Assembly (NCBI GenBank): GCA_017557605.1
Contig: JAFYYJ010000061.1
Coordinates: 1 to 64,000, forward strand
From: Salinivirgaceae bacterium
GTDB lineage: Bacteria > Bacteroidota > Bacteroidia > Bacteroidales > SZUA-534
Direction: 5' to 3'
Length of the DNA: 64,000 bases
In this document: positions 46,011 through 56,400 of the stretch, one piece after another
How the letters are laid out: every line of letters starts with the position of its first letter
Numbering within the stretch: the stretch's first letter is position 1
The notes under the pieces: model-generated
What the model saw: only the letters and a program-made list of their open reading frames with translations
What the model was told of the DNA's origin: nothing
Databases searched by the model: none
Position numbers and translations under genes: made by a program

Positions 46011-49000
46011 TTATTGTTTCTTCATCAATTCCTCTAGCATCTTCTTCATCTCCGCCATCTCTTTTTTCATTGCCTCGTTCTCTTTCTGCTGGTTGGCTAC
46101 GGTTGCTTCCAATGCGTCTTTCTCCGCTTTCAGCTCTTTCACGGCCTCAATAAGAATTGGGCCAAGAGTTGAGTATTCAACCGATTTGAAGCCTTCACCA
46201 TCGGTTTTTACAAGTTCCGGGTACTCTGCCTCAAGTTCTTGTGCAATAACTCCAATATGTTTGTTGCTATCGTAGTTATAATCGAAATTGTCAACAGAAA
46301 TGCCTTTGGCAGATGCCATTTCCTCGCGGTTTTTCCAATAGAAGCTGACACCTCTCAGTTTAAGCACTTTATCCAATGCTCCGGTAAGCGTTTGAACATC
46401 TTTCTTCAAGCGGCCATCACTGGTGTTGTCCCATGCAGAACTTCCTCCCGCATTGCCGTTGGCATACAAAGCATAACTGTTAGCTTGGACGGGTGCTTCG
46501 CCATACACTCCATAGTTTTTAATCGCATTTTTTGCAATTCCTTTTACACCGTAGTTTATAGTATTTGTTGCGGTTTTAGTGCCAGTTGCTTCTGCAAGCA
46601 CACCATAAGTTTTTGCATAAGTACCACCATGAGAATTTTTTGCATTTACAGCAGCTTGATTGTTGCTTGTATTAAAATCACCTGTTTGGGCATACACCGT
46701 GTTCCAGCGATTACTTGTTCCGCCCAAATCATAGCTGGTGCCTGATGGTTTTAATGTTGAAGTCACACTGCCCGACACTTTCAAATTTCCTCCAATGCTT
46801 GCTGTTCCGGTTGTTGAGAGGCTTGTTCCATAGATTTCTCCGCCAAAATTTACAGCTGTGGTTGTTTCGAGAATGCCATTTATTACAGTTTTTCCATTCT
46901 TATAAATAGTCAACACATCATTTCTGTTGTTATTGTTTTGGCCGTTTCCTATAACAAACAGTCTGTCGTTAACATTCCATTCTGTTGTGCTTTGAGGTGT
47001 ATAGTCGGTGTTAAAACAACCTATTGCTGTTTCTCGATATGATTTAGCTAATGTGCCATATCCGATAACTATAGAAAAAATGCCCGAAGCTTTTGCGCTA
47101 CCACCACTACCTATTGCAATGGCACCTCCACCTGATGCTACCGTGCCAGTACCAAAGGCAAAGGAACCGTTGCCTGATGCTGTTGCGCCTTGAATAGCAG
47201 TGGCAGTCTGACCACTGGCTGTACTCGAGAATCCTAATGCTAAACTAAAAATGTCTTCCGCTTTTGCACCCGGGCCAATGGCATAAGAATATTGTCCGTT
47301 AGCTTCAGCAGCGGGTAGATGTCTGCCAAAAAATAACGATGAACTACCCAAAGCAAAACTATATATTCCAGTAGCCTTTGCCCCAGTACCCAAAGCAAAA
47401 CAGCCTTCGTTTGTTGCTTTGGCAGTATCACCAAAAGCGTATGCTTGCTTTTCTGTTGCCTCTGCCATGTGGCCAAAGGCGAAACTTAGTTCGCCCTTGG
47501 CTTGTGCTGAATCACCAAAAGCGTATGAATAGGTATTTGTAGAATTCGCTTTTCGCCCAATAGCCACAGAGTTTTTTCCCGAAGCCGTACTCTCTACGCC
47601 TAACGATATCGATTTAACACCGGTAGCATTTGCTGTATAACCCATTGCGGTGGCGTACAAATCTGTTGTGTTAGCCGTGCCTATAGCTTTCGCCCCGTAG
47701 CCTATTGCGGTTGAGTATTTTCCTTTCACTTCCGAGTTGTAGCCCAAAGCTACCGAAGCCTCGCCATCGGCTGTCGACGCATTACCGCCGGCTATTGAAT
47801 TCTTGCCTGACGCTGTTGAACCAGAACCCATAGCTGTTGACGATTCACCCGAAGCGGTAGAACTTGAACCCATAGCTGTCGAGGTCTTGCCCGAAGCTGT
47901 TGTGCCAGAACCCATAGCTGTTGACGATTCACCCGAAGCCGTGCTGTTTGTGCCTAACGACATTGATTTAACACCGGTGGCTTTAGCTGTGTAACCCATT
48001 GCTGTAGCATACAAATTTGTTGTATTATAAGTATCTGTAGCCTTCGATTGGTAACCTATTGCGGTTGAGTACCGGCCTTTCACTTCCGACTGATAGCCCA
48101 ACGCTACGGCGGCCGTGCCGTCAGCCTTGGTTTGATAACCGCCGGCTATCGAATATGCGCCCGAGGCTGTTGAATTTGAGCCCATTGCAGTTGAAGCTGT
48201 ACCCGAAGCCGTTGTGCTTGCACCCATTGCGGTTGACGATTCGGCTGAAGCCGTGCTATTTGTACCTAACGACATCGATTTTGTGCCTGTGGCATTGGCT
48301 TGGTAACCCATTGCTGTAGCATACAAATTTGTTGTATTATAAGTACCTGTAGCCTTCGATTGGTAACCTATTGCGGTTGAGTACCGGCCTTTCACTTCCG
48401 ACTGATAGCCCAACGCTACGGCGGCCGTGCCGTCAGCCTTGGTTTGATAACCGCCGGCTATTGAATATGCGCCCGAGGCTGTTGAGCTTGACCCCATCGC
48501 TGTTGACGATTCTCCCGAAGCCGTTGAACTTGCGCCCATTGCGGTTGACGATGAGCCAGAAGCGGTTGTAGTGTTGCCCATTGCAGTAGCATATTGCGCC
48601 TGTGCCTTTGAACCAAAGCCCAAAGCCATCGATTGAACGCTTGTTGCCTTGGCCCCGTTTCCGAAAGCGTAGGCGTTTGCTTCTTTGGCTAACGCCGATG
48701 AACCAATAGCTACCGAGCTATCGCCTTCAGCGAAAGAGTGCCGTCCGAAGGCGAATGAGCTTATGGCTTTGGCCTGAGCCGAGTCGCCAATGGCTATCGC
48801 GGTCTTTCCCGAAGCCACCGACTTATAACCCAACGCTTGTGAAAAGTCGCCGCTGGCTTTGTTTTGGTAGCCGGCATTGAACGAGTTGGTGCCAACATCG
48901 CTAGCATTGTCAACCTTCAGATTACCAGCCATAAAAGCATTCTTTTCCTCGGCAGGATACCAATAAACGCGGTTCTCGCCTTTCAGTACTTCAGCGTTTT

Positions 49001-50735
49001 TGGCAAGGTCGATGTTGAAAAGATTGCGGATTTCACCGTTTTTGCCGCCACTCTTTCCTGCTACTGCGAAACCGCTCTTGGCGGCCTTGCTTTCGCCATC
49101 TTCTTCAATGTAAACACGGGTGCTGTCGGAGTCAACAATAAGATAGTTTGGGTTGGCTGTTTGGCCGTCTTTGCCTTTTTTCACACTTGCAACAGCAAAT
49201 GTTGCTTTAGCGGCTTTGTTATTGTGCGCATCCTCATCAATAAACACTTTGGTTCCGTCTTTGTTAATAAGAAAGAAATCCTCGGCTGTTTCGCTCTTGC
49301 CGTTGCGTACGCTTGCCACAGCGAATGTGGCCTTGGCTGCCTTTTGGCCATTCACACCGTCAACATATACTTTTGTTCCTTCGTCGTTGATAACAAAATA
49401 ATTATCTCCAACGCTGCCGTCGGCTTTACCACTCTTGCCGGCTACGGCAAATTTGGCCTTGGCGGCTTTGCCGCTGGCGGTGTCGTCAACAAAAACTTGC
49501 GTTCCGTTGTCGTCAATGGCAAAGAAGTTGGAGTTCTCGCCGGCCTTACCCGAGCGTCCTGCCACAGCAAACTTGGCCTTTGCTGCTTTTGTGTCGCCAT
49601 CGTCAACATAAACTTTTGTTCCTGCTTCGTTCACAACCAACAGATTGCCATCGGCTTTGCCACTTTTGCCAGCCACAGCAAATTTAGCCTTGGCGGCTTT
49701 GCCGCTGGCGGTGTCGTCAACAAAAACCTGCGTTCCGTTGTCGTCAATGGCAAAGAAGTTGGAGTTCCCGCCGGCCTTACCCGAGCGTCCCGCAACTGCA
49801 AATTTGGCTTTGGCGGCTTTTGTGTCGCCATCGTCAACATAGACTTTTGTTCCTGCTTCGTTCACAACCAACAGATTGCCATCGCCTTTGCCACTTTTGC
49901 CAGCCACAGCGAATTTGGCTTTAGCAGCCTTACCGCTGGCGGTGTCATCAACGTAAATCTGTGTGCCATAGCCGTTTACGGCAAAATAGTCAGTATTGGC
50001 GTTGGCTTTGCCGCTCTTGCCGGCTACGGCGAATTTGGCTTTGGCAGCTTTGCCGCCGGTTGTTACGGTATCATCGTCAACATAAACCTTTGTGCCGCTG
50101 GCGTTTACCGAGAAATATTGGCTCTCAGTGCCGTCTTTACCGCTCTTTCCGGCCACGGCAAAACCGCTTTTTGCGGCCTTCGCATCGTTCTCGTCAACAT
50201 AAACGCGAACACCGTTTTTATAAACGGCGAACACAACCTTGCCGTCGTTATCCTTCACCTCAAACAGAGCCTCTTCGTCGCCAGTCTCGTTTGTGGCTTG
50301 AATCTTAATGTTTTTCGGGTTTTCAACCTCGCCGGTCTTTTTGGCGTACTCGGCCACAGGCACCGATTGCAGCTTGGTGGTGCCAATAGTTGTGAAATTC
50401 TCGTCGCCTTCGGGGTCAAACTCGGTTCTCATATAAACCTCACCACTGTTCCACGGCACCTTCGAGAAATAACCTGACAAAACCGTGCCGTTGCCCACAA
50501 CAATCGAAACCACACCGTAGGCGTTGGTGGAGACAGGTTTGTGCATCTCCTTGTAATAGACTTCGTTGCCATTGGCGGTTGTCAACGTTATACGCAAAGC
50601 TATCTGTTGTTCGGCCAAAAGGTTGCCGTTGGCATCGCGGATAACAGCCTGGTAATTGAAGCCGTTTTGAGCCATTGTCGTTGTGGCTGCAAACACGGCT
50701 GCAACTGCCAACATTAAGTTTCGGATTTTGCTCAT
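46011..50735 (-). CDS. Repeat-built fibre/adhesin-like protein with YadA-head repeats and C-terminal S74 chaperone domain
   Basis: 1574 aa. Signal peptide to about MAQ23. An N-terminal domain (about 24-135; FNYQAVIRDANGNLLAEQQI) is shared with many exported Bacteroidetes proteins. Ten repeats of about 37-40 aa follow (about 190-570), each with AAKAKFAVAGKSGK and GTKVYVDD. Then come about 630 residues (612-1245) of 14-residue repeats like ASGESSTAMGSSST, the left-handed beta-roll pattern of YadA heads in trimeric adhesins. The C-terminal S74 peptidase/intramolecular chaperone (about 1432-1530) has NTSDGRLKKD with S1439 and K1444, the self-cleavage dyad of phage tail fibres, then a coiled coil to the end. 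No type IX C-terminal sorting domain or YadA anchor is visible, so its route to the surface is unclear. Confidence 0.85.
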   Translation of the reverse strand: MSKIRNLMLAVAAVFAATTTMAQNGFNYQAVIRDANGNLLAEQQIALRITLTTANGNEVYYKEMHKPVSTNAYGVVSIVVGNGTVLSGYFSKVPWNSGEVYMRTEFDPEGDENFTTIGTTKLQSVPVAEYAKKTGEVENPKNIKIQATNETGDEEALFEVKDNDGKVVFAVYKNGVRVYVDENDAKAAKSGFAVAGKSGKDGTESQYFSVNASGTKVYVDDDTVTTGGKAAKAKFAVAGKSGKANANTDYFAVNGYGTQIYVDDTASGKAAKAKFAVAGKSGKGDGNLLVVNEAGTKVYVDDGDTKAAKAKFAVAGRSGKAGGNSNFFAIDDNGTQVFVDDTASGKAAKAKFAVAGKSGKADGNLLVVNEAGTKVYVDDGDTKAAKAKFAVAGRSGKAGENSNFFAIDDNGTQVFVDDTASGKAAKAKFAVAGKSGKADGSVGDNYFVINDEGTKVYVDGVNGQKAAKATFAVASVRNGKSETAEDFFLINKDGTKVFIDEDAHNNKAAKATFAVASVKKGKDGQTANPNYLIVDSDSTRVYIEEDGESKAAKSGFAVAGKSGGKNGEIRNLFNIDLAKNAEVLKGENRVYWYPAEEKNAFMAGNLKVDNASDVGTNSFNAGYQNKASGDFSQALGYKSVASGKTAIAIGDSAQAKAISSFAFGRHSFAEGDSSVAIGSSALAKEANAYAFGNGAKATSVQSMALGFGSKAQAQYATAMGNTTTASGSSSTAMGASSTASGESSTAMGSSSTASGAYSIAGGYQTKADGTAAVALGYQSEVKGRYSTAIGYQSKATGTYNTTNLYATAMGYQANATGTKSMSLGTNSTASAESSTAMGASTTASGTASTAMGSNSTASGAYSIAGGYQTKADGTAAVALGYQSEVKGRYSTAIGYQSKATDTYNTTNLYATAMGYTAKATGVKSMSLGTNSTASGESSTAMGSGTTASGKTSTAMGSSSTASGESSTAMGSGSTASGKNSIAGGNASTADGEASVALGYNSEVKGKYSTAIGYGAKAIGTANTTDLYATAMGYTANATGVKSISLGVESTASGKNSVAIGRKANSTNTYSYAFGDSAQAKGELSFAFGHMAEATEKQAYAFGDTAKATNEGCFALGTGAKATGIYSFALGSSSLFFGRHLPAAEANGQYSYAIGPGAKAEDIFSLALGFSSTASGQTATAIQGATASGNGSFAFGTGTVASGGGAIAIGSGGSAKASGIFSIVIGYGTLAKSYRETAIGCFNTDYTPQSTTEWNVNDRLFVIGNGQNNNNRNDVLTIYKNGKTVINGILETTTAVNFGGEIYGTSLSTTGTASIGGNLKVSGSVTSTLKPSGTSYDLGGTSNRWNTVYAQTGDFNTSNNQAAVNAKNSHGGTYAKTYGVLAEATGTKTATNTINYGVKGIAKNAIKNYGVYGEAPVQANSYALYANGNAGGSSAWDNTSDGRLKKDVQTLTGALDKVLKLRGVSFYWKNREEMASAKGISVDNFDYNYDSNKHIGVIAQELEAEYPELVKTDGEGFKSVEYSTLGPILIEAVKELKAEKDALEATVANQQKENEAMKKEMAEMKKMLEELMKKQ
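48008..48492 (-). repeat. Near-identical 312-bp-spaced repeats inside the fibre gene
   Basis: About 170 bp (48008-48180) recur almost unchanged 312 bp away (48320-48492), and a diverged third copy begins near 47648. They encode GGYQTKADGTAAVALGYQSE and neighbouring 14-mers. The period of 312 bp is 104 codons, so recombination between copies would keep the frame. Confidence 0.7.
49450..50050 (-). repeat. 231-bp tandem repeats inside the fibre gene
   Basis: Copies start at 49450, 49681 and 49912, exactly 231 bp (77 codons) apart. The first two are nearly identical; the third diverges after about 130 bp. Each encodes two FAVAGKSG/FAVAGRSG units with alternating GTKVYVDDG and GTQVFVDDT ends. Confidence 0.7.
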
Positions 50736-51277: not shown

Positions 51278-54004
51278 ATGATAGATATGAAAATCAGAAT
51301 CCGCCTCAGTATCAGAGTGCTATGCTTGGTTTTAGGAACAGTTTTCGCCGTAATCCTGTTTGCTTCGGGGTTTGCCACACGGCAGTTCCGAAATTCGATT
51401 GTCGAGACTATGGAAAAGAAGGACGCCGCTGTTATTAGCGACGTATCGACAATAATCAGCAATTTGTCGTCCAACCAATTTCAGTCGTTGCTGACTTTGC
51501 GGTCGATAATTGAGTCGGTCGACGACCAAGCTTTCTCCGGAAACAACGAGTTTTACAACAAAACCATTAAAAAAGCCTGCGAGGACAACCAGGCGTTGTC
51601 GTTTGTGTGGCTCAGCTTCGACAGCCAGTATCTTGACGCCTCGAGCGAGGAGGGGCGCACCACACTTAAAGCCGAAAACACATCGTACGGTGCCGAGGTC
51701 AGCTCAAAAACCATAGCTCAGGTTTACGACGATATGGAGGACCCCTATTTTATTTGCAAAGACGCCGGCGCGCCAATCATAGCCGAACCCGACTACTATC
51801 TCTACGACGGCTCAACAGCCAAGCGCACCATGCGCATCCCAATGGCAATGCCGATAAACAAAAACGGCAGTTTTGCCGGTGTGATAGGGATAGACATCAA
51901 CGCCAACTCGCTTCAGGCGATAATCGATTCGATAGGCAAAGAGAAAAATCAGCACGTCTTCATCTTGTCGCCTAAAGGACACATAATGGCCGCCAACCCC
52001 GATAAGAACTTCAACGGCCAACTCTACAACGAGATAGACACTTTGATTGGCGGCTTCCTCTACGAGTCGTCGGAAGATGTTGTGAATCGTACTTTGATAA
52101 ACAGAAGCACCGGTGACACTTATTGCAACATTCAGGCCATATCGCCCGAAAACCTTAACTCACAATGGAAAGTTGTGGTTGTAACCGACGACAACATCGA
52201 CGAACAAATGGCCGAATCGCTCAACGTGGTAACACGCGCCATTCTTATCGGTCTGTTACTGCTTGCGCTCATCATCGCCATACTGACACAGGGCATTGTC
52301 AACCCGATAAAGAAGGTGAACGAGGTTATCAACCGTCTGGCGCAGGGCAAGGTTGACGAGACGCTTGAGATGCGTGTTGAGAGCAACAACGAGCTTGGGC
52401 AGATGACCGACTCATCGAACAAGGTGGTCGAAGGTCTGTTGCAGGTTACCAAATTTGCCGAGAACATAGGCAACGGCAACTCCGACTACAAATTCAGTCC
52501 GCTGAGCGACCGCGATGTTTTGGGCAACGCCATTATCGAGATGAAATCGAGCCTCGACGAAGCCAAAGAGGAGGAGAACCAGCGTCACGCCGAGGAGGAA
52601 CAACTGAACTGGGCGTCGTCGGGTATCAACCTGTTCAACAAGGTTTTGCGTATCGACAACAAAGATATGCAGACAATAAGCGCCGAGATAATAAAGACAC
52701 TGACACTTTACCTTAACGCGCAAATGGGCGCTCTCTACATTGTTCCCGAGGACCGTGAGGGGCTTGAATTGGTGTCGCATCTGGGTTTCGGCAAAGACAA
52801 GGGCGAAAAAACGTTTTTCAGCCCCAGCGACGGCCTTATGGGGCGCATCTATCACGAGCGCGAGACGATATTCATCAGCGAGATACCCGATGATATGGAG
52901 CGCATCGGCTCAGGATTGGGTCGTTCGCTGCCAAAATCGGCTTTGATTGTGCCGCTCATCTACAACAGCAAATTGGTGGGCGCCATTGAGCTTTACTCTC
53001 TCAAGGTTTTCGAGCAGTATCAGATAGCATTTGTCGAAAAGCTGTCGGAGAACATAGCATCCACATTGTCGACAGTGAAGATAAACGCTCAGACGACACT
53101 GCTGCTCAGCAAAGCTAAACAGCAGGCCGAAGTGCTTGAACAGCAAGAGGAGGAGATTCGTCAGAACATGGAGGAAATGCAGGCCACGCAGGAGGAGACA
53201 ACGCATAAAGAGGAGGGTCTGTTGGCGGTTATCGAATCACTCAGCAACATTGTGCCAATAGTCCACTACGACCTTCAGCAACGCGTTACCGACGCTAACG
53301 AGGAGTTCCTGAACTTTGTGCAGACGCGCCGTAACAAGGTTGTGGGCAAACGTCACAAGGCCGATGTCCAGATGACCGAAGTTGAGGCCAAGGCGCATGA
53401 GCACTTCTGGGACGAGATTCTGGCAGGCAACATTATGGAGGAGGACGAGCAATTTGGCGAGGGAAAAGATGCCGTTTGGCTCCGCATGCATTTCATTCCA
53501 ATCTACGACGACACAAAGAAGATAGTAGATATTGTTGCTGTTGGATTCGACATAACAACACAAAAGAAATACGAGGCTCAGATAGATATGGTTGCCGAAG
53601 GCGTGATACCAGAGGAGTTGAAAAGCATGCTGAAAACATCGGCTAACAAGAAACGCCGCCTTATCGACCTGACCAACATGAACGCTGCTTATAAAAACGA
53701 CGAGAAGAAGATTGACAACATGCTGCGCCGCTACTACGAGCAGATTCCCGCACAGTTTGCTGACATCGAAAAAACCATTGAGAGCAACAACTACAAAGTG
53801 CTGAAAATGGAGGTGAAGGCCCTGCGGACAAAAATCAATTATCTGGGAGTGAAGCCGATAACCGACATGCTCGACACCATTATAAACTCGATAACGAAAA
53901 ATTCGGGCACCGAGCGAATTCCGCAAGTGTTTGCCGACGCAAAGAGCAAATGGGAAGAGGCCTACAATGAGCTTACCGAGCTTATCGGTCTGATTGATGA
54001 GTAA
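51278..54004 (+). CDS. Membrane sensor: Cache-HAMP-GAF-coiled coil-PAS with degenerate HPt-like C-terminus
   Basis: 908 aa from the ATG at 51278, preferred because the extra 14 residues of the longer frame look non-native. TM1 about 14-33, an extracytoplasmic dCache-like domain (about 35-310; GVIGIDINANSLQAIIDSIG), TM2 about 322-339, HAMP (about 340-392), a NWASSGINLFNKVLR linker and GAF (about 445-600), a coiled coil with EEEIRQNMEEMQATQEE (624-640), a PAS domain (about 650-765) and a C-terminal helical bundle (about 800-908). The bundle aligns with HPt domains, but the HTLKG-type His position is K in KALRTKINYLG. No kinase, GGDEF, EAL, phosphatase or chemotaxis domain is present. The gene precedes a paralogue by 32 bp. 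Confidence 0.85.
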   Translation: MIDMKIRIRLSIRVLCLVLGTVFAVILFASGFATRQFRNSIVETMEKKDAAVISDVSTIISNLSSNQFQSLLTLRSIIESVDDQAFSGNNEFYNKTIKKACEDNQALSFVWLSFDSQYLDASSEEGRTTLKAENTSYGAEVSSKTIAQVYDDMEDPYFICKDAGAPIIAEPDYYLYDGSTAKRTMRIPMAMPINKNGSFAGVIGIDINANSLQAIIDSIGKEKNQHVFILSPKGHIMAANPDKNFNGQLYNEIDTLIGGFLYESSEDVVNRTLINRSTGDTYCNIQAISPENLNSQWKVVVVTDDNIDEQMAESLNVVTRAILIGLLLLALIIAILTQGIVNPIKKVNEVINRLAQGKVDETLEMRVESNNELGQMTDSSNKVVEGLLQVTKFAENIGNGNSDYKFSPLSDRDVLGNAIIEMKSSLDEAKEEENQRHAEEEQLNWASSGINLFNKVLRIDNKDMQTISAEIIKTLTLYLNAQMGALYIVPEDREGLELVSHLGFGKDKGEKTFFSPSDGLMGRIYHERETIFISEIPDDMERIGSGLGRSLPKSALIVPLIYNSKLVGAIELYSLKVFEQYQIAFVEKLSENIASTLSTVKINAQTTLLLSKAKQQAEVLEQQEEEIRQNMEEMQATQEETTHKEEGLLAVIESLSNIVPIVHYDLQQRVTDANEEFLNFVQTRRNKVVGKRHKADVQMTEVEAKAHEHFWDEILAGNIMEEDEQFGEGKDAVWLRMHFIPIYDDTKKIVDIVAVGFDITTQKKYEAQIDMVAEGVIPEELKSMLKTSANKKRRLIDLTNMNAAYKNDEKKIDNMLRRYYEQIPAQFADIEKTIESNNYKVLKMEVKALRTKINYLGVKPITDMLDTIINSITKNSGTERIPQVFADAKSKWEEAYNELTELIGLIDE

Positions 54005-54036
54005 AAACGTTTTTCTGGAAACTAAATAGAAAAGAG

Positions 54037-56400
54037 ATGATTTTTAAAAAGACTATCCACCGGAAAATGGTGCTCAACCTGTTGGGCACATCGCTTATAA
54101 TGTATATAGCCGCAATGGGTTATATCATCTACGAAGTGGCGGAAAATCTCAAAGCCGACTCGTACACCGAAATGAAACAGGAATCGAGCGACATAACCAG
54201 CCGCATTGAGGGACTTGTTGCCAGCCGCACAAAGATAGTGGAGACCTTGGCTGCCACCATGGCCAACTACAACGATATTGAGGAAACCGAGCGCCGGCCA
54301 TTCTTCAGCGACCTTTTGCACCAGACATTACTGGAAAATCCTGACCTCTGTGCTGCCTGGTCGATTTGGGAGCCGAACAGCATCGACAATCTTGACGAAA
54401 ACTACATTGACAAGGTTAACTCCAATTCCATTGGCAGCTTCTCTCCCTCTTTCTATCGGGTTGACGAAGAGATAAAATCGGAAGAGACAACCGACACGCA
54501 ATACGAGGAGGATTTCTACACCCTGCCGCGCGACACAAAAAAGACCAAAATGGTGGAGCCCTACTTCTATTCTTATAACGGCAAAGACTCCATTCTTATG
54601 ACATCAATAGTGGCTCCAATAATCGTCTGGGATGAGTTTATGGGCGTTGTGGGCATCGACCTTTCGATACACGATTTGAAGAAACTGCTTGTGCTGAACC
54701 CCGACGGCAAAGACGAAAAGAATTATCTGATTTCAGAATCCGGAAAATATCTCTACAGCCGCGACACCAAACTGACAAGTACGAAACAGACTATTGTTGC
54801 GGACATCGACAGTATTGCCCGCGACACTCTTTACATAGGCAACGATATCAACGGCGAGAAATCGATTATTGTTTGCAACAGGGCAAGTTTCGACAACGCG
54901 CAGAGCTATTGGCATGTAGTTACCGTATCGTCGTGGAAGAGCAGCTTCAAACAACGGAGCAGCAGTCTTCTGCGTTTGCTTATCATAACCATTATCGGTC
55001 TCATTATCATCTCAATAGTTATCTCGATAGTGGCCCGGACAATATCGGGAACCATTGTCGGCATCAACAACAAGCTGGCCGACCTGTCGCTGGGTATCAT
55101 CAGCGACGAGAAGATGCATAAGACGCGAATCAAGAGCGAGATAACCGACCTAACGGAGTCGATTGAGGTGCTGAGCGACGGTTTGAAAGCATCGGTGAAC
55201 TTTGCCGGCGAGATAGGCAAGGGCAATTATGACGCCAAATACCGGCTGCTGAGCGACGGGGATACTTTGGGAGAGTCGCTTATCGCCATGCAGAAAAGCC
55301 TTGTGAAAGCAAAAGAGGAGGAGGACCAGAAGAAAGAGGTTGACGCACAGCGCAACTGGGTTACCCACGGCCTGGCCGAATTTGGCGAGATTATCCGCCA
55401 GGAGAACGAGAACGCCGACAGCTTTGCCTACAACGTGCTCAACGAGCTGCTGAAATATATGGACATTGTGCAGGGCGCCGTTTATTTCAAGATAGAAGAT
55501 GAGTATGACACCGAGCTGAAGTTCGAGAGCAAGGCCGCCATAGCCTACGGCAAGCAGATAATGCTCGACACCGTTGTGACGGATAAAGACGGTCTGTTTG
55601 GCCGCGTAATCGACGAGATGCGTCTTATCTATCTCGAAGATGTGCCCGACAGCTACGTTACATTCACGCAAGGCAAACGCGAGGAGCAGAAACCACGCAA
55701 CCTGCTGCTTGCCCCGATGATTGTCAACGATGAGATTTACGGCATAATGGAGCTTATATCGTACAATCATATCGAGAAATACAAGATAGATTTTGTGGAG
55801 CATCTGTGCGAAAATATGGCGTCGGCTGTTTCAAATGTCAGCATCAACGCACACAACGCCAAGCTACTTGAGCAATCGAATGAACAAACCGAAGTGCTGT
55901 CGCAGCACGAGGAAGAGATGCGCCAGAACCTTGAGGAGATGCAGGCCACACAAGAGGAGGCCACCAAGCGTCAAGACCAGCTCAACGCGCAAATCAGCGC
56001 TTACTATAAAGGTCTTATGGTTGCCGAAATCGATTTGAGCGGAAAAATAATGAGCATGTCTAAACGGCTGATGTTCTTCTACAATGTCGGCGACAACTTT
56101 GTTGGTGTTCCGTATGTATCGCTTGTCACGCAAGACGAAGCGGCGCGCGAACAGTTCATCAACGAGTTCTGGCCAGCGCTGCTGAATACAGGCAAAGCAC
56201 GGCGCAAAAACAAATCGCTGATTCGCGGAAAGCAGCTGCGCACCACCGAATACTACAAGGTTGTCTATCTTAACGAGCAACCCGACCATGTGATTGTTGT
56301 CTCGGAGAACCGCAGCCGCGAGCATGAGCTCAAAGACCGCCTGATGCTTGAGATACAGTCGTATATGAAAGAGCACGGCATCGATGCCGGAAACGCATAA
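54037..56400 (+). CDS. Membrane sensor: Cache-HAMP-GAF-coiled coil-PAS
   Basis: 787 aa. TM1 about 12-33, an extracytoplasmic dCache-like domain (about 36-300; MTSIVAPIIVWDEFMGVVGID), TM2 about 311-332 (LLRLLIITIIGLIIISIVIS), HAMP (about 333-390), the NWVTHGLAEFGEIIR linker and GAF (about 445-598), a coiled coil with EEEMRQNLEEMQATQEE (625-641), and a PAS domain (about 655-760). It ends 27 residues later without any catalytic output domain. Same architecture and motifs as the upstream 908-aa protein, so the pair arose by duplication. The downstream pgeF gene follows by 12 bp. A partner kinase encoded elsewhere, or signalling through heterodimers, is inference. Confidence 0.85.
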   Translation: MIFKKTIHRKMVLNLLGTSLIMYIAAMGYIIYEVAENLKADSYTEMKQESSDITSRIEGLVASRTKIVETLAATMANYNDIEETERRPFFSDLLHQTLLENPDLCAAWSIWEPNSIDNLDENYIDKVNSNSIGSFSPSFYRVDEEIKSEETTDTQYEEDFYTLPRDTKKTKMVEPYFYSYNGKDSILMTSIVAPIIVWDEFMGVVGIDLSIHDLKKLLVLNPDGKDEKNYLISESGKYLYSRDTKLTSTKQTIVADIDSIARDTLYIGNDINGEKSIIVCNRASFDNAQSYWHVVTVSSWKSSFKQRSSSLLRLLIITIIGLIIISIVISIVARTISGTIVGINNKLADLSLGIISDEKMHKTRIKSEITDLTESIEVLSDGLKASVNFAGEIGKGNYDAKYRLLSDGDTLGESLIAMQKSLVKAKEEEDQKKEVDAQRNWVTHGLAEFGEIIRQENENADSFAYNVLNELLKYMDIVQGAVYFKIEDEYDTELKFESKAAIAYGKQIMLDTVVTDKDGLFGRVIDEMRLIYLEDVPDSYVTFTQGKREEQKPRNLLLAPMIVNDEIYGIMELISYNHIEKYKIDFVEHLCENMASAVSNVSINAHNAKLLEQSNEQTEVLSQHEEEMRQNLEEMQATQEEATKRQDQLNAQISAYYKGLMVAEIDLSGKIMSMSKRLMFFYNVGDNFVGVPYVSLVTQDEAAREQFINEFWPALLNTGKARRKNKSLIRGKQLRTTEYYKVVYLNEQPDHVIVVSENRSREHELKDRLMLEIQSYMKEHGIDAGNA

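Follow-up and report, generated by a model that had tools for sequence, protein, structure and literature searches.

A conserved pair of output-less membrane sensors in Bacteroidota and its probable link to a CheR/CheB-SpoIIE-SiaB-SiaC gene cluster

Chemoreceptors are normally receptor-only sensors that act through a separate transducer shared among them, and MCPs have several methylation sites. The published consensus for CheR is EExxA(S/T) (PMC1079850). In the SiaABCD Thr-phosphorylation switch of Pseudomonas aeruginosa, the phospho-acceptor of SiaC is T68 (PMC7647112). Here, we describe two adjacent membrane sensors, P1 and P2, whose output is probably encoded elsewhere, in a gene cluster that combines CheR and CheB with SpoIIE (SiaA-like), SiaB, and SiaC proteins. 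A preliminary description of the locus had proposed that the pair works by binding or as a heterodimer with an unseen partner, and had called this an unusual logic for large membrane sensors. This was overstated for the receptors, which follow the chemoreceptor plan, and it is the transducer that is unusual.

Domain anatomy and pairing of P1 and P2

We analyzed a window of 64,000 nucleotides (the whole stretch of DNA under study) from the MAG of a rumen Salinivirgaceae bacterium; an assembly of water-buffalo rumen contains a P1 with 98% identity. Both genes lie on the + strand with intact frames (0 internal stops) and an intergenic gap of 33 bp, and a laccase-domain gene starts 13 bp after P2. 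The features of the pair are as follows.

51278..54004, + strand: P1 gene, 908 aa, dCache-TM-HAMP-GAF-coil-PAS-(His-less HPt) (ORF, Pfam, 17 orthologous loci)
51425..52042, + strand: P1 periplasmic dCache_1, residues 50-255 (Pfam E 3.6e-13)
52286..52414, + strand: P1 HAMP, residues 337-379 (Pfam E 4.4e-4, below cut-off; HAMP in 51/63 family members)
52661..53068, + strand: P1 GAF, residues 462-597 (Pfam E 2.9e-15)
53159..53197, + strand: P1 coil motif RQNMEEMQATQEE, residues 628-640 (sequence, conservation)
53171-53188, + strand: P1 EEMQAT (CheR-type consensus, PMC1079850), residues 632-637, candidate methyl-accepting Glu633 (sequence)
53258..53566, + strand: P1 PAS, residues 661-763 (Pfam E 2.1e-6)
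53651..54001, + strand: P1 His-less HPt tail, residues 792-908, with Lys847 (codon at 53816) at the phospho-His position (alignment, Pfam, AF2, Foldseek)
54037..56400, + strand: P2 gene, 787 aa, PDC-TM-GAF-coil-PAS (ORF, Pfam, AF2)
54307..54681, + strand: P2 periplasmic PDC (MCP-like_PDC_1), residues 91-215 (Pfam E 4.9e-11)
55417..55830, + strand: P2 GAF, residues 461-598 (Pfam E 3.1e-7)
55921..55959, + strand: P2 coil motif RQNLEEMQATQEE, residues 629-641 (sequence)
55933-55950, + strand: P2 EEMQAT, residues 633-638, candidate Glu634 (sequence)
56017..56310, + strand: P2 PAS-like domain, residues 661-758 (AF2 model only, pLDDT ~78-92 over most of the region)

The coordinates and lengths agree with the preliminary description, which had assigned a Cache-TM-HAMP-GAF-coil-PAS architecture to both proteins and placed an RQNxEEMQATQEE motif before each PAS domain. 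The motif is present in both coils, with the consensus RQN(M/L)EEMQATQEE. For P2, Pfam detected neither HAMP nor PAS; the PAS assignment comes from the AlphaFold model, in which a PAS-like alpha/beta domain (residues 661-758) is preceded by one unbroken 79-residue helix. Foldseek searches with the cytoplasmic model of P2 returned mainly multi-domain GAF/phytochrome structures and were of little help with the PAS. The claim that both sensors lack an output domain was borne out by Pfam and NCBIfam scans, which revealed no catalytic domain in either protein. By Pfam, P1 and P2 contain neither HisKA/HATPase nor the MCP signaling hairpin (PF00015), and those NCBIfam kinase models with a match in P1 cover only its HAMP or PAS parts. 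Loss of a kinase by frameshift was rejected, as the frames are intact and the orthologues in the 17 other loci are equally long.

Elsewhere in the window, positions 46011-50735 (- strand) encode a protein of 1574 aa that contains 33 YadA-head repeats and ends in an S74 endosialidase-chaperone domain, and whose neighbors we take to be ruvA and sprA (type IX secretion).

P2 lies directly downstream of P1 in every P1 locus (the window and 17 orthologous loci), so that these homologues always occur as a pair; some loci contain one or two extra family members upstream. The flanking genes are common only to the closest relatives and otherwise change, and no kinase gene is conserved beside the pair across these loci. 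Although the two sensors are adjacent and related, as the preliminary term "duplicated" implied, a recent tandem duplication is rejected by the tree: P1 and P2 are 27% identical, fall into separate, well-supported clades, and belong to an eight-member family in their own genome. The two clades point to long joint inheritance, and P1-P2 is an ancient, obligate pair. P1 and P2 probably form one receptor complex, which would be a hetero-oligomer.

The HPt fold of the P1 tail

We built a model of the P1 tail from an alignment of 17 tail sequences. The AlphaFold (AF2) model (pLDDT 93) adopts a four-helix HPt fold, and its top Foldseek matches are HPt proteins (TM 0.79-0.83; 3myf, 7c1i). The Pfam Hpt model matches 6 of the 17 orthologue tails, with a best E of 5.8e-6. 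A PDB sequence search with the tail gave weak matches only (best 3myf, E 0.058), and the HPt assignment is therefore carried by the fold comparison.

These profile and structure searches of the C-terminal residues confirm the HPt-like tail that had been proposed, including the absence of the histidine, and show no catalytic domain; the lysine reported in its place is not conserved. Across all 18 sequences (P1 and its 17 orthologous loci), the phospho-His site is occupied by K, N, S, T, or V and never by His, and the LKxKxxYxG pattern around it is largely kept among orthologues. Because the site varies in this way, only the absence of His counts as a real feature, and Lys847 was rejected as a functional His substitute. 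The tail retains the HPt fold and not the phosphotransfer residue. It has the four-helix fold in common with HPt proteins (BarA-type 3myf, HptB 7c1i) and with the pseudo-HPt AHP6, whereas it differs from HPt proteins in having no phospho-acceptor His, in its fusion to a membrane sensor, and in standing outside any visible phosphorelay. Judged by its missing His, the tail is predicted not to be a functional HPt, and it may act as a docking or regulatory bundle rather than as a phosphorelay step.

Alternatively, the tail could still take part in a phosphorelay by competing for, or titrating, receiver domains. AHP6, a plant HPt-like inhibitor of cytokinin signaling that lacks the phospho-acceptor His, would be a precedent for such a role, and the surroundings of the site (LKxKxxYxG) retain the fold well. 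We consider this quite improbable, however, given that the site residue is free to vary, that an HPt match is found in neither P2 nor the other paralogues, and that no receiver protein is linked to P1-P2 in the flanks seen. If the proposed docking or regulatory role is correct, the P1 tail is a clear case of an HPt conserved for its fold and not for phosphotransfer.

A receptor-only family and the CheR/CheB-SpoIIE-SiaB-SiaC operon

The source genome encodes eight paralogues on seven contigs, P1 and P2 among them. All share a linker-GAF and a coil of the form RQNxEE(M/L)xAT(Q/H)EE or a close variant. Only the copy on contig C107 carries a catalytic output, a C-terminal SpoIIE phosphatase; the copy on C97 ends in a bacteriohemerythrin-like domain, and the others have no output. 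The C97 domain (L011:77-2878) scores an NCBIfam E of 6.7e-17, below the curated cut-off, and by eye several of its usual iron-ligand His residues seem to have been substituted; this would be a loss of His comparable to that in the HPt of P1.

We surveyed 63 non-redundant, non-SpoIIE members from across Bacteroidota with Pfam and inspected the 25 commonest families, which include GAF, HAMP (51 of 63 members), PAS, and Cache domains. Neither an enzyme domain nor the MCP signaling domain PF00015 is among these 25. Several members terminate 55-67 residues past the GAF, soon after the coil, so that no conserved element lies beyond it. Rather than a peculiar pair, P1 and P2 belong to a large receptor-only family of Bacteroidota. 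Outside the family, the closest relatives that share this linker-GAF are hybrid histidine kinases, as would be expected if the sensors were decaying hybrid histidine kinases that had lost their kinase domain. We give this reading almost no credence: the reading frames are intact, the P1 and P2 clades are ancient and monophyletic, the coil is near-invariant, and the output-less state extends over the 63 members surveyed.

Conservation of the coil motif was assessed in a census of 197 Bacteroidia genomes, using a family profile that omits the coil and splitting high scorers from lower-scoring relatives. This profile search replaced an invariance estimate from loci fetched by a motif-containing pattern, which is biased; position-by-position motif counts are likewise anchored on the motif itself and do not constitute independent evidence for it. 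In the census, EExx(A/T)T(Q/H)E occurs in 26 of 28 family proteins and in 1 of 22 lower-scoring hits, and most of the latter that were checked are histidine kinases. One of the two exceptions, a family-like protein at L151:8083-10398 (genome G168) that has lost the EExxAT motif, lies in a region with CheW and CheB genes.

P1 and P2 each carry EEMQAT, which fits the CheR consensus, and the coil glutamates Glu633 (P1) and Glu634 (P2) are candidate sites of methylation by CheR. There is one EExxAT site per coil in each protein. The flanking RQN and QEEE show the same degree of conservation as EExxAT, and the coil may function as a binding surface, either in addition to a role in methylation or in its place.

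The C107 paralogue belongs to an operon (L016) with the order CheR-CheR-CheB-GAF-[GAF/coil/PAS/PAS/SpoIIE]-SiaB-SiaC-ABC and without a separate sensor; a SpoIIE/PP2C phosphatase, a SiaB kinase, and a SiaC phosphoprotein are thus encoded together. The scores are 4e-17 for SpoIIE, 5e-50 for the SiaA model, 7e-48 for the SiaB family, and 1.6e-41 for SiaC. The SpoIIE protein has a GAF and a coil (QNAEEMRATHEE) similar to those of the sensors. CheB is a bare, receiver-less catalytic domain of 187 aa that aligns to 3sft/1chd over the catalytic region, CheR aligns to 5ftw, and the phospho-Thr of SiaC is conserved (Thr68, aligned to the P. aeruginosa SiaC Thr in 6kko/6k4f). In many other Bacteroidota, an output-less family sensor is part of this operon, either between two CheR genes or upstream of a single one, giving the order CheR-[sensor]-CheR-CheB-GAF-SpoIIE-SiaB-SiaC-ABC; a cultivated relative with the operon is Perlabentimonas gracilis M08 (locus L069). 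Among 61 loci outside the P1/P2 orthologues, which were picked solely by similarity to P1 with neighbors not a selection criterion, 31 have the sensor no more than 3 kb away from CheR/CheB, and SpoIIE is present as well in 25 of these 31. The operon SpoIIE protein lacks the coil motif in 8 of 11 cases in the census set, and coil-coil pairing is therefore not universal.

Two side observations concern the components of this operon. The source genome (3.1 Mb) has some 20 phosphatase domains of the SpoIIE type, which suggests that it relies heavily on partner switching. In other Bacteroidia (L138, L139, L141, and L142), a receiver-less CheB lies beside GAF hybrid histidine kinases, and two of these loci also contain CheR. 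This is a second setting in which CheR/CheB are used without CheA.

CheB is present in 13/13 family-bearing census genomes and in 51/184 without the family (Fisher p = 1.8e-7, a value that ignores shared ancestry; the test spans 8 families). It is also present in 17/17 other genomes with the P1-P2 pair, nearly all of which contain the CheR-CheB-GAF-SpoIIE-type cluster in the retrieved loci, some of which end at contig edges. A CheW domain, in contrast, is found in 2 of the 13 family-bearing census genomes. It is absent from 11 of the 17 other pair-bearing genomes and from the source genome, which consequently has no CheA or CheW.

P1 and P2 could in principle be classical chemotaxis receptors that couple to CheA/CheW. 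Their Cache/PDC sensor domains are those of MCPs, and in three relatives (L204:1891-10330, L205, and L206) a family sensor directly follows a cheA-cheW-cheR-cheD-cheB cluster. However, CheW is missing from 11 of 13 family-bearing census genomes, from 11 of the 17 other pair-bearing genomes, and from the source genome, and the MCP signaling domain is not among the commonest domains of the family. The source genome retains a paralogue, C21, that is 65% identical to the L204-L206 sensor and has the same two genes downstream, and the cheA-cheW-cheR-cheD-cheB cluster is missing at this syntenic site (L014:4586-9385). Retention of the sensor where CheW domains are absent indicates that the family is independent of CheA/CheW. 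We therefore regard coupling to CheA/CheW as very improbable; it appears largely refuted already by the absence of these proteins from the gene content.

Proposed signaling route and comparison with known systems

We favor, with moderate confidence, a reading in which P1 and P2 are methyl-accepting-like receptors that are adapted by CheR and a REC-less CheB and regulate a shared SiaA-type phosphatase/SiaB/SiaC switch. The periplasmic Cache/PDC domains and the cytoplasmic GAF and PAS domains would read signals, and the readout would travel via the continuous helix and through the near-invariant coil RQNxEE(M/L)xAT(Q/H)EE, a putative common output surface. Its Glu-Glu-X-X-Ala-Thr would serve as a CheR-type site at which the receptors are adapted by the CheR methyltransferases and by the CheB esterase, which has no receiver. 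As the shared transducer, we propose the separately encoded SpoIIE-type (SiaA-like) phosphatase, which in the source genome bears a similar GAF and coil and may contact the sensors. This phosphatase and the SiaB-like kinase would together control the phosphorylation of SiaC on Thr, as in a partner switch.

Gene neighborhood and co-occurrence point to the C107 cluster as the place of the output. The P1-P2 locus is not beside CheR/CheB, and its link to the cluster consists of family membership and co-occurrence; CheR/CheB could act on other paralogues only. The preliminary description had envisaged a self-contained heteromer that acts on a histidine kinase or another partner, in which case the CheR/CheB/Sia cluster would serve the other paralogues. 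This is suggested by the adjacency of P1 and P2 in all P1 loci while the flanks change, by the absence of CheR/CheB within the retrieved flanks of these loci, and by the HPt fold in P1. Nevertheless, we think it unlikely, as the coil motif of the cluster-linked members is complete in both P1 and P2, CheB accompanies the pair in all 17 other genomes, and the differing flanks leave no kinase gene conserved beside it. Its idea of a separate binding partner appears right, and the partner is probably not a histidine kinase.

Receptor-only, methylation-adapted sensors wired to a SiaA/B/C-type switch seem to lack a published description, and we found none for the CheR/CheB-SpoIIE-SiaB-SiaC operon, in the openly accessible literature (most subscription journals and preprints lie outside it). 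If the route through this switch is correct, methylation and adaptation of receptors can operate apart from the CheA kinase, and gut and environmental Bacteroidota would use the same module to drive a serine/threonine partner switch. This would give a function to many output-less "GAF/PAS domain proteins" and explain the retention of CheR and CheB in genomes without CheA. In a broader proposal, for which we see the case as evenly balanced, Bacteroidota would have a second adapting chemosensory array, in which many CheR/CheB-methylated receptor-only GAF-coil sensors feed a PP2C phosphatase/SiaB/SiaC output that replaces CheA/CheW/CheY and was kept after the loss of classical chemotaxis.

Among described systems, MCPs of the Tsr/Tar type with CheR/CheB resemble the family in periplasmic Cache/PDC sensing, TM and HAMP regions, receptor genes scattered around one shared cluster, the presence of CheR and CheB, and an EExxA(S/T) consensus within a coil. 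Unlike MCPs, P1 and P2 have no MCP hairpin (PF00015 is not among the common domains of the family), a single candidate site, and GAF and PAS domains in the output half, and their genome has a CheB without a receiver domain and no CheA/CheW. Without the hairpin and CheA/CheW, P1 and P2 are not MCPs, though they are probably MCP-like in their working. The CheR-CheB-linked GAF hybrid histidine kinases of Bacteroidia (for example, L141 and L142) share the linker-GAF and are preceded by a receiver-less CheB and CheR, whereas their output consists of a kinase and a receiver and their coil is a different one that lacks EExxAT. Finally, the cluster resembles the SiaABCD switch of P. aeruginosa (PMC7647112) in its SpoIIE/PP2C protein, which fits the SiaA model (5e-50), its SiaB family kinase (7e-48), and a SiaC with a conserved phospho-Thr. 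P. aeruginosa SiaA combines HAMP and phosphatase in one protein, whereas here most sensors are separate, CheR/CheB are added, and an ABC transporter takes the place of the SiaD diguanylate cyclase.
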